From: Chloracidobacterium sp. CP2_5A
GTDB taxonomy: Bacteria > Acidobacteriota > Blastocatellia > Chloracidobacteriales > Chloracidobacteriaceae
NCBI GenBank assembly: GCA_002254845.1
Contig: NKPT01000040.1
Location: 1-32,553, forward strand
Reading direction: 5' to 3'
DNA length: 32,553 nt
The notes beneath the pieces were generated by a model, which had not been told where the DNA came from, made no database searches, and was given only the letters and a program-made list of their open reading frames with translations. A program made the position numbers and the translations under genes. Positions 4,016 through 11,263 of the stretch are shown here, piece by piece. How positions within the stretch are numbered: position 1 is the first letter of the stretch; every line of letters begins with the position of its first letter.

Positions 4016-4673
4016 GGGGCAGTTCCTCCTAAGTGTTTTGCTGTAGCAAGCGTTTTGCTGTAGCAAGCGCGTGGCGCTAGGTTTTGACGTTTTGACGCCA
4101 AATAAAGCAAGTTTTATGCCGCAAAGCCTGCGCCGCTCCGCGGCGGGGGAAATCGCGGCGGAGTTATTTAAAGTCAACCGACGGGCCAAGCGCGCGCCGC
4201 CGCTTTTGGCGCAGGCTGTCGGCGGTAAGCGCCCAGGTCCAGATTTTTGGATAAAGCTCTGGAAATCTGGTTTCGCTTGCCGTGGCGACTGGCGAGCCAA
4301 TGAGGCGAAGCGTCTTCCGTTTTTTGACTTGGCCGCGGCGGAAAGCCGCCGATGACCTCCGCCCAAGCCCTTTGTCCTCCAGCTGGCAGACGCAGCTTGC
4401 ATAAGCCGACGGCCCGGCTGCGGCGGCGAGCCGGCGCGCAAGATTGGCAAATCTAGTCCGGTCTTGCTCGCCCGCGCTCCAGCAGGTCTTGACGTCGCGC
4501 CCTCAGCCCGTAAGGTGCCAATGTCATCCGTTAGCGCGCAACGCGCCGACCCCCGCGGAACATTCCGCCGTTTTCGGCGTTACGTAGTCGCGGCGCGTTC
4601 CGCGCCCGGCGTCTCATAAAAATCTTTGCGCGGGCTCGCATCGTGCCAAGAAAGATGGAAAGGAGCTGGCTTC
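4016..4673. other. Divergent intergenic region between the Oar-like receptor and the putative lipoprotein gene
   Basis: 658 bases with no convincing gene. The open frames here (for example 4071-4355 plus and the upstream extension of the receptor frame) are rich in Arg/Ala/Pro and lack recognisable domains. The part next to the receptor holds short tandem repeats (described separately). An 8-bp inverted repeat CCAGATTT/AAATCTGG lies at 4239-4246 and 4263-4270, and a CGGCGG-aaag-CCGCCG hairpin occurs near 4335-4352. Promoters for both divergent genes must lie here, but no strong -35/-10 pair stood out. Confidence 0.5.
4035..4068. repeat. Two perfect tandem 17-bp copies containing a TTGCT-gt-AGCAA palindrome
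   Basis: The unit gttttgctgtagcaagc occurs at 4035-4051 and again directly at 4052-4068 without a mismatch. Each copy holds the inverted repeat TTGCT(gt)AGCAA. With a 2-nt centre it is unlikely to form an RNA hairpin and looks more like a paired protein-binding site. The block starts 20 nt upstream of the receptor start codon, just outside its ribosome-binding site. A further dyad AGCGC-gtg-GCGCT (4066-4078) and a direct repeat gttttgac x2 (4081-4096) follow. An operator role is inference. Confidence 0.6.
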
Positions 4674-5651
4674 ATGACCTTGCCGACGATTTTCCCGTCT
4701 GGCTTTTGGACGCGCAGCGTCGCGCTGAGCTTAGCGGCGCTTTTGACCAGCGGGTGTTTCGCCTGCTCTTCCTCGCGCCCGTATCAGCCGCAGCCGGTGA
4801 GCGCCCCGCCAGCCAAGCCCTCGACGGTCACGGCGACCACCAATGTCCCGGGGCAAGGGCTTGATCTGCAGGCTCTTATCGGGCTGACCAAGCAGGCGAA
4901 AAGCGCCGAGGAGCTGGAGCGCCTGCTCAACCAGCCCGGCTCCATCAATAACCTTGACCTCGACGAAGATGGGAACGTGGATTACATCCGCGTTCAGGAG
5001 TACGGCGGCGGCGCCACGAAGAATTTTTCCTTTGTGGCGCTGCTGAAGGATGGCCAGGAGCAAGAAGTCGCCGACCTCCGCATCGAGCAAACGCCGGGCC
5101 AGCAAGAGGCCGTCGTGCAGGTGCAGGGCCACCCGACGGTTTACGGCCCGAATGTCTATTACTCCGCCGCGCTGCCGATGGCGACGGCGCTTTTCCTTGC
5201 GTGGGCGCTTGCGCCGCGCCCGGCGTTCTATGTTTCGCCCTACGGGTTTGGCGCGTTTCCAGCCTACTACCGTCCTTATGCCCCTGTGCCGGTGGCTACC
5301 TACCGGACGACCGTGACGAACTACACGCGCGATGTTCCGGTTCGGCGGGCGGCGCAGCCGCTGATTCGCTCGACGGCTGTCTCGCCAAACGCCGGCAAGG
5401 TCGCGTCAAGCGTCCGTCAGCCGCTCGCGCAGCCGACGCAGACGCAGCGCCAGTTCCAGCAGCGCGACGGCAACCGTCCGGTCGCTTCGGGCGGCTTTGG
5501 GCAGGGTCCGGCCGCGCAGCGCAGCGCCCTGCCGCCGACGGCCACGCCGCGTCCCGCGCCCCCGCCAGCGGCCCGTCCAACGCCGCCGCCAGCCGCTAGC
5601 CGCCCGTCGCCGCCGCTGCGTAACTTCAACAGCCGCGGGCGGCGCAACTAG
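4674..5651 (+). CDS. Putative lipoprotein with DxDxDG-type motif and Pro/Tyr-rich C-terminus
   Basis: A 325-residue exported protein of unknown function. The start at 4674 has a GGAG about 10 nt upstream. A more upstream in-frame start (4626) would place charged residues before the signal sequence. Residues 11-28 form a hydrophobic signal ending LLTSGC, with cysteines at 28 and 31. Neither is a textbook lipobox (Leu lies at -4 of C28), so lipidation is likely but not certain. Residues 62-150 form a compact domain with a calcium-loop-like motif D95-L-D97-E-D99-G-N-V-D103, followed by YIRV. A hydrophobic stretch lies at about 164-181, then a Tyr/Pro/Phe-rich segment (residues 182-210), then a low-complexity Pro/Ala/Arg/Gln tail. 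The following gene also ends in a Tyr/Pro-rich segment, which hints at a shared partner. I do not recognise a named family. Confidence 0.75.
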   Translation: MTLPTIFPSGFWTRSVALSLAALLTSGCFACSSSRPYQPQPVSAPPAKPSTVTATTNVPGQGLDLQALIGLTKQAKSAEELERLLNQPGSINNLDLDEDGNVDYIRVQEYGGGATKNFSFVALLKDGQEQEVADLRIEQTPGQQEAVVQVQGHPTVYGPNVYYSAALPMATALFLAWALAPRPAFYVSPYGFGAFPAYYRPYAPVPVATYRTTVTNYTRDVPVRRAAQPLIRSTAVSPNAGKVASSVRQPLAQPTQTQRQFQQRDGNRPVASGGFGQGPAAQRSALPPTATPRPAPPPAARPTPPPAASRPSPPLRNFNSRGRRN

Positions 5652-5742
5652 CGCTTTTCGCGCGGCGCGCCCGGGCGCTTTGGGGTTGTCAAGGGCGACG
5701 ACCCCTTTCCCCAAAAAAAGCGCGCTGACTGGGCGGGATGGT

Positions 5743-5761
5743 CTTGCGGCTGTCCCGCAAG
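5743..5761 (+). other. Perfect 7-bp hairpin between the lipoprotein and downstream gene
   Basis: CTTGCGG (5743-5749), loop CTGTC, CCGCAAG (5755-5761). There is no U-tract, so this is not a standard intrinsic terminator. It sits 39 nt upstream of the next start codon, and an mRNA-processing or translation-control role is only a guess. Confidence 0.35.
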
Positions 5762-5800
5762 GGCTGCGGCGACAGAGTCCCTACAAGGAAGGAAAAAGCG

Positions 5801-6658
5801 ATGGAAAAGCAGGTCTACACGCTGACCGACGCCCAGCGCATCGGCTTCGCCAGCATCTTTGTACTCGACAAGATGGCGCGCAAAGGACGGAAGTTCGCCG
5901 TCGCGCCGACCGATCCGGACGAAATGGCGCTCAGGGATGTGATCCAGACGCTTTTCAACGAGCGTCTCATCGAGATTCAGGGCGCGTACTACGCTCTCAC
6001 TGAAGCCGGCAAGGAGCGCGTCCGTCGGTTCCGCCAGCGCTACGAGGAATACCTCGCCGTCTATGACATCTACTGCGCCGTGGACTTGGCCGCCGGCGAG
6101 TTCGCCTTCGAACGGTATTACGACTTCGACGACGATGCCTGGCGGCTCTATCTCCAGCAAGAGCGATGGGAAGACTTGCGCGTAGCCGTCGCCATTCACA
6201 AAAAGCTTGACCCGGTTGAAATCGTCTTTATGTCGTTTGTGATGGAAGGGCGGTTTGACGACTACGCCGACGGCAAGTGGGAGCTGGGTATCCTATCGGG
6301 CGAGCTGTGGAACGAGATTCTCGCCATTGTGAATTCCAATCTGCACCCCTGCGAGCTGGGCTACGCGACAACCGATCCCAACGACCCCAGCCGGACGCTT
6401 GAAGTCACGCCGGACGACGTGATGGGCGACATCCTCGCGCGCGGCGGGCAAATTACGCTGGAGCTAGTGCGGCGCGGAAAGGAAATCGAAGCCGAGCAGC
6501 AGGCGCTCCAACCGGCGGCGACCACGACGGAGACCGTCTATGACTACGACTTTGTGATTGCCGATCCGTATGTGTACTATACGCCCTACCTGAGTCCGTA
6601 CTACGTCAGTCCCGTCTGGACGGCTCCGCTCTATCCAACCGTTGTGGTCAGGGTCTGA
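5801..6658 (+). CDS. Uncharacterised protein with winged-helix-like N-terminus and Tyr-rich C-terminal tail
   Basis: A 285-residue protein with no family that I can name. The start at 5801 is chosen because AAGGAAGGA (5786-5794) lies just upstream. An earlier in-frame ATG at 5738 has no ribosome-binding site. Residues 8-75 read like a winged-helix fold: an alpha-helical start, then ALRDVIQTLF-NERLIEIQGAYYALTEAGKERV, where LIE..GAYYALTEAGKE resembles a wing plus following helix. Residues 80-240 are mixed alpha/beta and rich in acidic and aromatic residues. The last 40 residues are strongly enriched in Tyr and Pro (DPYVYYTPYLSPYYVSP). No signal peptide is visible, so it is probably cytoplasmic. 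It lies between the putative lipoprotein and bioB and is probably co-transcribed with at least one of them. Its function is unknown. Confidence 0.75.
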   Translation: MEKQVYTLTDAQRIGFASIFVLDKMARKGRKFAVAPTDPDEMALRDVIQTLFNERLIEIQGAYYALTEAGKERVRRFRQRYEEYLAVYDIYCAVDLAAGEFAFERYYDFDDDAWRLYLQQERWEDLRVAVAIHKKLDPVEIVFMSFVMEGRFDDYADGKWELGILSGELWNEILAIVNSNLHPCELGYATTDPNDPSRTLEVTPDDVMGDILARGGQITLELVRRGKEIEAEQQALQPAATTTETVYDYDFVIADPYVYYTPYLSPYYVSPVWTAPLYPTVVVRV

Positions 6659-10009: not shown

Positions 10010-11263
10010 TCACGCCGTTTCGGTTTTGAGCCGCAGCACGCAGCCCGGCTCAAACGCGAAGTGGGTGTGACCGGCCGGTTGCTTGACTGTCGCGCGAACT
10101 GATCCGGTTGAGCCGACAATGATCCGGCGCGCGCCGCTGATCCCCGGCGAGGCGTCGGAGGCGAATCGTCCGTGAACGACCAGGATGCCGCTGCCATGGA
10201 CTTGGCAGCCGTCAAGCAGTCCCTCGCGGCCGATGATAAGCTGGGCGCCCTGTCCGAGGGTAATGTTGCACTTCAGGAAGCGACCGTCCACTTCGACGAT
10301 CGAATCGGCGTCGAATTCGAGCGAGGCGTCGCGCAGCACGTCGCCATGGCCGAAGTAGCGCCGGTTGGTTGGCGCCGGGGCGACCGCCACGGCTTGCGGC
10401 GATGCCGTGCCGCCGTCCGTCTTGCCGTTGAGAAAAGCGGCCAGTCCCGCCGCCGGGATAAGCTGAGAGCCGTCGCCGGCAACGCTAAAATCCACCTCAT
10501 CCACTTCCGCGCCATCCGCCGCCTCGATGGAAAAGTCGCTGCCGTAAAGATGCGTGCGACTGAACTTAGCCCCTTTGAGGCGGGCGCCCTGAAAGGTGGC
10601 GTGGCGACAATCAGCGTCTTGCAGGCTGACTTGCGAGAGGTCGGCGCCCTCCAGGACGGCTCGTTCCAGCTTTGCGCCGGAGAGGTCCGCGCCGGGCAGG
10701 GCCGCGCGGCGCAGCACAGCGTCCCGCAGGTTAGCGCCGGTTAGCAACGCTTCCTCGAAGTTCGCTGATTCAAGGATAGCGTTTTGAAAGTCCACGGCCG
10801 TGAGATTGGCGCCGCCCAGATAGGCGTTGCGCAAATCGGCATTGGCGAAGTTGGCGTTTTCAAGCGTGGCGACGCCCAGCTTGGCATCAACAAGCTGGGC
10901 GGATGGGAGGCGCGCGCCGGTGAGGTCCGCGCCTTCGAGGTTGGCCCCTTCGAGATTCGCCCGCGACAAATCGGCTCCGCGCAAGTTGGCGCCTTCCAGG
11001 TTGGCGCTTTCCAAATCGGCTCCGCGCAAGTTGGCGCCTTCCAGGTTGGCGCGAACCAAAAAGGCATCGCGCAAGCTGACGCTGGCTAGGTTGGCGCGTC
11101 GGAGAGAGGCTTCCTCCAGGTTCGCCCCCTCAAGGTCGGCACGACGCAGGTTGGCGTTGTCTAAGTTAGCTTTTGCCAAGTCGAGCTCGCGCAGGTCCGC
11201 TCGCTCCAGCGATTCGCCGCGCGCCACTCGCTCAATCACTTCTTCAAAGGTGAACTCAGGCAT
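10010..11263 (-). CDS. Pentapeptide-repeat protein with bactofilin-like C-terminal domain
   Basis: A 417-residue protein. Residues 20-245 are nearly continuous pentapeptide repeats of the A(D/N)Lxx type, predicted to form a right-handed quadrilateral beta-helix of about 45 repeats. A linker (250-305) follows, with a Pro/Ala-rich part. Residues 310-413 contain glycine-spaced hydrophobic rungs (EVDGRFLKCNITLGQGAQL, IIGREGLLDGCQVHGSGI, LVVHGRF) that resemble a bactofilin core. The start at 11263 has an AAAGGGG 8-10 nt upstream. Its position directly before a true bactofilin gene supports a related structural role, possibly as a co-polymer or adaptor. Function is inferred from architecture only, and no enzymatic motif is present. 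No signal peptide is visible, so it is probably cytoplasmic. A recent internal DNA duplication is described separately. Confidence 0.85.
   Translation of the reverse strand: MPEFTFEEVIERVARGESLERADLRELDLAKANLDNANLRRADLEGANLEEASLRRANLASVSLRDAFLVRANLEGANLRGADLESANLEGANLRGADLSRANLEGANLEGADLTGARLPSAQLVDAKLGVATLENANFANADLRNAYLGGANLTAVDFQNAILESANFEEALLTGANLRDAVLRRAALPGADLSGAKLERAVLEGADLSQVSLQDADCRHATFQGARLKGAKFSRTHLYGSDFSIEAADGAEVDEVDFSVAGDGSQLIPAAGLAAFLNGKTDGGTASPQAVAVAPAPTNRRYFGHGDVLRDASLEFDADSIVEVDGRFLKCNITLGQGAQLIIGREGLLDGCQVHGSGILVVHGRFASDASPGISGARRIIVGSTGSVRATVKQPAGHTHFAFEPGCVLRLKTETA
10967..11052. repeat. Internal 45-bp-period duplication in the pentapeptide-repeat gene
   Basis: A 41-bp segment at 10967-11007 recurs identically at 11012-11052, giving a 45-bp period. 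That is exactly 15 codons, or three pentapeptides. The perfect identity at DNA level, against the diverged neighbouring repeats, suggests a recent expansion. It keeps the frame and adds turns to the beta-helix (around residues 73-100). Confidence 0.8.

Follow-up and report, generated by a model that had tools for sequence, protein, structure and literature searches.

Directly ahead of an Oar-like receptor gene in Chloracidobacterium sp. CP2_5A, a palindromic unit is repeated in perfect tandem. What is this repeat for, and how is the receptor gene below it switched on? The first-pass annotation offered two explanations for the repeat, an operator for a dimeric regulator or a slippage-prone, phase-variable leader. 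We looked for an answer in the window (the whole stretch of 32,553 nucleotides that was analysed), in the seven genomes of the genus and in 162 genomes of the class Blastocatellia. The features of the locus are collected in Table 1.

Table 1 Features of the receptor gene and its upstream region in the window.
Feature	Position	Strand	Remarks
Oar-like outer-membrane receptor, 1222 aa	347..4015	-	signal-peptide-like N-terminus, CarboxypepD_reg, OMP_b-brl_4
Receptor start codon ATG	4015-4013	-	
Shine-Dalgarno (SD) AGGAGG	4025..4030	-	
Perfect tandem duplication, period 17	4035..4069	.	dyad TTGCTgtAGCAA in each copy
Dyad TTGCTgtAGCAA, two copies	4038-4049 and 4055-4066		inside the period-17 tandem
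GCGC dyad AGCGC-gtg-GCGCT	4066..4078	.	
GTTTTGAC, twice	4081..4096	.	coincides with the predicted transcription start
Predicted 5' UTR, ~80 nt	4016..4095	-	deduced from the position of the -12
Putative sigma-54 -24/-12 element CGGCATAAAACTTGC	4107..4121	-	one mismatch (C for T in the -24)
Conserved 16-bp dyad TATCCAAAAATCTGGA, proposed activator (enhancer) site	4238..4253	-	

The elements described in the first-pass annotation were all there: two perfect 17-bp copies with the dyad TTGCTgtAGCAA, placed upstream of the SD (4030-4025) of the minus-strand receptor gene, as well as the GCGC dyad and the GTTTTGAC doublet. The tandem lies between the SD and this doublet, and with one mismatch allowed the period-17 array reached 4031. 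No other perfect tandem with a period of 12-40 was present in the window, and none arose in five mononucleotide shuffles of it. On the other hand, the window contains 61 perfect inverted repeats whose arms are 5 bp long and 2 nt apart. The stretch 4035-4069 is beyond chance as a duplication, but not as a palindrome. A scan for tandems across the genus (101 loci, 400,081 bases, with overlapping stretches counted) gave 12 arrays in 11 loci. Two of these, L009 and L136, were the same 17-bp repeat again, and the remainder were ten arrays in nine other loci. With perfect tandems in nine other loci of the 101, tandem duplications are thus an ordinary genome change in this genus.

The name Oar-like receptor proved right, the protein having a carboxypeptidase-regulatory domain (PF13620, 63.3 bits) and an outer-membrane barrel (PF25183, 459.9 bits). 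From the TonB-dependent receptor models, PF00593 stayed just under its cut-off (25.3 vs. 27 bits) and the plug was not matched, so we kept the label as "Oar-like". Orthologues were found in all six other genus genomes, with 75-93% identity, and G002 was the closest by protein identity (93%). Codon 373 of the 1223 in the G005 orthologue (L011, G005:C1:1965385-1969029) was an in-frame stop, due either to a broken gene or to a sequencing error. Oar-like matches covered 37 stretches of the own genome, several per gene. A DNA search of 39 genomes with the upstream region returned the window itself and four short pieces. Elsewhere in the window, 45-bp and 15-bp tandem repeats (10967-11098) were seen within a pentapeptide-repeat gene (10010-11263, minus strand).

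The palindrome was not found at any other receptor gene. In the 3.41-Mb genome (385 contigs, the window being number 97) the exact motif TTGCTRYAGCAA occurred in two places, both at 4035-4069, and the reversed pattern, used as control, had an equal count. In the loci of the six genus orthologues (6.2-6.7 kb each) the motif was absent throughout. The repeat is neither at several promoters nor kept in orthologues, and it lies below the predicted transcription start; a role as an operator that other receptors share through a dimeric regulator is not supported. A palindromic site that is paired in many relatives does exist, about 200 bp farther upstream (4238-4253).

In the alignment of the seven orthologues, one strong conserved block was recognized near the start, consisting of GG-N10-GC with TTGC. 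This -24/-12 element was present in 7/7 genus orthologues and began 82-113 nt before the ATG. Compared with TGGCAY-N5-TTGCH, four of the elements were perfect (among them G001 and G004, which are near-identical here) and three, including the one in the window, had one mismatch. The gene rpoN was detected in all seven genus genomes (PF04552 above cut-off), and a scan for sigma-70 promoters between 3900 and 4700 found none. Sites with at most one mismatch to the sigma-54 pattern numbered 251 on both strands of the genome, compared with 164 for the reversed control. We infer that the element is a sigma-54-dependent promoter in vivo. By the usual sigma-54 geometry the receptor transcript would start near 4095, so that the repeats would be part of the transcribed leader. 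Any effect they have would then be on the transcript, through stability or translation, and not on initiation.

Upstream of this promoter, at a distance of 129-157 bp from the -24, the dyad had zero to one mismatch to YRTCCRAAAATCTGGA in six of the seven genus genomes; in G003 it was kept only with three mismatches. A terminator-like stem at 4239-4270 was rejected as a terminator, since it sits between divergent genes and holds the conserved dyad. Across the 162 Blastocatellia genomes, the pattern RTCCRAAAAYYTGGA gave 67 matches, compared with 15 for the reversed control. The dyad was positioned roughly 110-150 bp above sigma-54 promoters and was often paired about 20 bp apart; outside the genus such pairs were frequent, with a spacing of 19-23 bp. 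A sigma-54 match of at least 9/11 was found 40-190 bp off, on either side, in 29 of 47 distinct readable dyad sites (some of which are pairs within one locus), and 18 had none. In control stretches, where one strand was read, 8 of 354 had such a match. Among 30 automatically chosen dyad loci, 12 had a well-placed match of at least 9/11, five of them in the genus. A further set of 20 dyad stretches was chosen from the 67 matches, favouring genomes with several matches and loci that already looked good; seven of the stretches repeat automatically chosen loci. Nineteen of them had a sigma-54 promoter, a biased rate because the loci were partly hand-picked and orthologous pairs (G041/G028, of one genus) are included, and in 16 of the 19 it was 110-115 bp from the dyad. 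The genes below these 19 promoters encoded an Oar-like receptor in 17 cases and a sensor kinase in two; in L195 the contig stops after the N-terminal domain. One weak dyad/promoter pair (L254) was left out of the count. Conserved and associated with sigma-54 sites, the dyad is a putative upstream activator site. Sequence comparison supports the -24/-12 element, the dyad and the association of both with Oar-like receptors.

Sigma-54 sites were also looked for above further Oar-like genes of the own genome. Of 13 whose start was in the fetched locus (L034 being readable for 86 bp only), three had a sigma-54 site within 300 bp upstream. The binomial chance is 0.0003, given 0.010 sites expected per 300 bp on one strand from the genome count. 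The matches C79, C158, C179 and C256:2919 were outside this survey, and C134 was cut by a contig end. The three sites, in L028 (G000:C50), L042 (G000:C36) and L046 (G000:C25), had no upstream dyad, which within one mismatch is unique in this genome, suggesting other activators. The sigma-54 site of the C50 gene was kept in its orthologues L022, L025 and L031. In L114:1373-1400 (G000:C255) there was a perfect 14-bp tandem, TTTGACATAGCATG twice, about 100-127 bp above the perfect sigma-54 site TGGCACAAGACTTGCT. It is possibly another activator site.

An enhancer-binding protein of the response-regulator type, sitting at the dyad 4238-4253, would switch the receptor promoter on. We detected nine strong sigma-54 activator genes in the window genome. 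A lead toward one of them came from G024, where a REC-AAA+-HTH_8 regulator comes after a kinase with PDZ, PAS, HisKA and HATPase domains. In 5/5 genomes of G024's genus, paired dyads and a promoter matching at 9/11 lay ahead of the kinase, with the regulator adjoining each time. G025, from another family, had the same dyad pair and 9/11 promoter before the kinase, and its best regulator match was on another contig. At L206:2322-5255 and L250-L253, from five of five genomes of one genus, a PDZ/PAS sensor kinase lay beside an AtoC-like regulator and was under a dyad pair and a sigma-54 promoter of its own, which suggests positive autoregulation. In G016, G028 and G041 the kinase adjoined the regulator without the dyad/promoter arrangement.

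The orthologue of this regulator in the window genome was the AtoC/NtrC-like protein G000:C11:8822-10225 (68% identity). Its HTH segment was 70% identical, compared with 41% for the next best activator of the own genome, and a PilS-like kinase was found nearby on the other strand. We consider this protein the likeliest activator of the receptor promoter, at about even odds. The regulator gene was present in 145 of the 162 class genomes, and its co-occurrence with the dyad is therefore uninformative. Counting against it, G139, with seven dyad matches, had no regulator at E <= 1e-130, and the 11 kb around the C11 gene had neither a dyad within two mismatches nor a strong sigma-54 site.

Below the promoter, the leader changes fast. 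The G002 leader had its own tandem at the same place, with a period of 21 and about 18 identical bases per copy, but of different sequence; its unit was weakly alike to that of the window (p 0.03). The two tandems derive either from an ancestral array homogenised separately in each species or from a duplication that happened twice. Among 24 scanned leaders three had tandems, those of the window, G002 and L196, the last one of 12 bp in a stretch without a recognised SD. No leader tandem of at least 85% was found in five of the seven genus orthologues (G001 and G005 by the scan, G003, G004 and G006 by reading the alignment).

Perfect copies, and a tandem of another sequence and period at the same spot in G002, point toward repeated turnover, which would be in line with a contingency tract, in which slippage alters the number of copies and so adjusts how strongly a surface receptor is expressed. 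We judge such phase variation to be quite improbable, as there are two copies only, most genus orthologues and all but three of the scanned leaders have no such tandem, and the modelled accessibility of the SD was about the same with one, two or three copies (0.37, 0.35 and 0.37 at 37 °C; 0.40-0.43 at 50 °C). From the phase-variable leader proposed at first, the turnover of the tract sequence was retained; the tract is non-coding, and its copy number hardly changed SD accessibility in the model. Instead, the leader could have a functional hairpin that is conserved in structure, though not in sequence, and affects mRNA stability or the access of ribosomes; the repeat would be one of its forms. 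In agreement with this, the window leader minus the SD folded somewhat better than its shuffles (z -1.8, p 0.04), negative z-scores (-0.5 to -1.3) were obtained for five of six orthologue leaders, and some stem preceded the SD in, e.g., G001, G005 and G006. However, all orthologue z-scores were non-significant, that of G003 was +0.64, and the alignment of the leaders was highly divergent. Neither did the Rfam search find a family in the leader, its one match being P6 at 4534-4652, with 18.6 bits vs. a cut-off of 50. The fold z-scores were not convincing for a conserved hairpin, and we regard this explanation as unlikely.

Two identical dyads, 17 bp apart and upstream of a start codon, might also be a local operator, at which a dedicated dimeric repressor would block transcription of this one gene just below its start. 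The closest relative does have a tandem, partly dyad-like unit at this spot. On the other side, the repeat sequence was kept in none of the six orthologue loci, the motif was confined to one place in the genome, and dyads of this size are common, as the count for the window shows. Moreover, the promoter predicted here belongs to the activated type, and no repressor-like DNA-binding protein was found among the tested neighbours, although the two divergent genes (4674-6658) had no Pfam match. This makes a local operator very doubtful. In our view the repeat is a lineage-specific duplication, for the most part neutral, which may add a leader hairpin.

Taken together, we think it probable that a local duplication in the 5' UTR lies below an activator-driven sigma-54 promoter of the receptor gene. 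Transcription would start near 4095 from the element at 4107-4121, the C11 protein would be the likeliest enhancer-binding protein acting from the dyad, and the 17-bp repeats would be a lineage-specific tandem duplication in the receptor mRNA rather than an operator of a shared regulon. Counting against this are the mismatch in the -24 of the window, the reversed sigma-54 control, which was also common, the three mismatches in the G003 dyad, and the dyad sites without a sigma-54 match. Of the earlier interpretation, the repeats, the Oar-like receptor and the turnover of the tract were kept, and the operator shared through a dimeric regulator was given up. More tentatively, and with a chance that we put a little short of even, one core two-component system may serve the Blastocatellia. 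In it, a membrane PAS/GAF kinase, which in two families has this dyad upstream of its own gene, and an AtoC-like sigma-54 activator would switch on sets of Oar-like receptors via TCCRAAAAYYTGGA. In the leader of the Chloracidobacterium receptor, below this switch, hairpin-forming tandem units would turn over again and again in two closely related species.

Sigma-54 promoters generally have a GG-N10-GC element, paired activator dyads upstream and enhancer-binding proteins of the NtrC/AtoC family. The arrangement predicted here is similar to these sigma-54 (RpoN)/NtrC-AtoC systems. It combines GG-N10-GC with a sensor kinase, a REC-AAA+-Fis activator and dyad pairs that lie roughly 110-150 bp upstream, about two helical turns apart. 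It differs in its targets, the Oar-like receptors of Acidobacteriota. The dyad TCCRAAAAYYTGGA was matched to no described activator site. In PEP-CTERM systems, the kinase PrsK and the sigma-54 response regulator PrsR control surface proteins. Their NCBIfam models, TIGR02916 and TIGR02915, both matched proteins here, but far under the cut-offs: TIGR02915 gave 355.9 bits for the window orthologue and 379.1 for P0002 (cut-off 502.6), and TIGR02916 gave 105 for the kinase P0003 (cut-off 300). Phase-variable promoters and leaders of surface genes have tandem repeats near the gene start. The perfect tandem units of the window likewise lie close to where a surface-protein gene begins, but here there are two 17-bp copies with no modelled effect on the SD.

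In the part of the literature that was searched, including PMC12316311 and PMC3174227 and with most subscription journals outside its scope, we found no account of acidobacterial Oar-like receptors being under sigma-54 control, nor anything on how these receptors are switched. The repeat itself is of little importance, unless its copy number proves variable. The more useful result is the sigma-54 promoters of Oar-like receptors, with their upstream dyad, across the Blastocatellia. Members of the phylum carry many Oar-like receptors, and a defined promoter, a predicted activator site and a candidate activator make their switching testable in cultured Chloracidobacterium.
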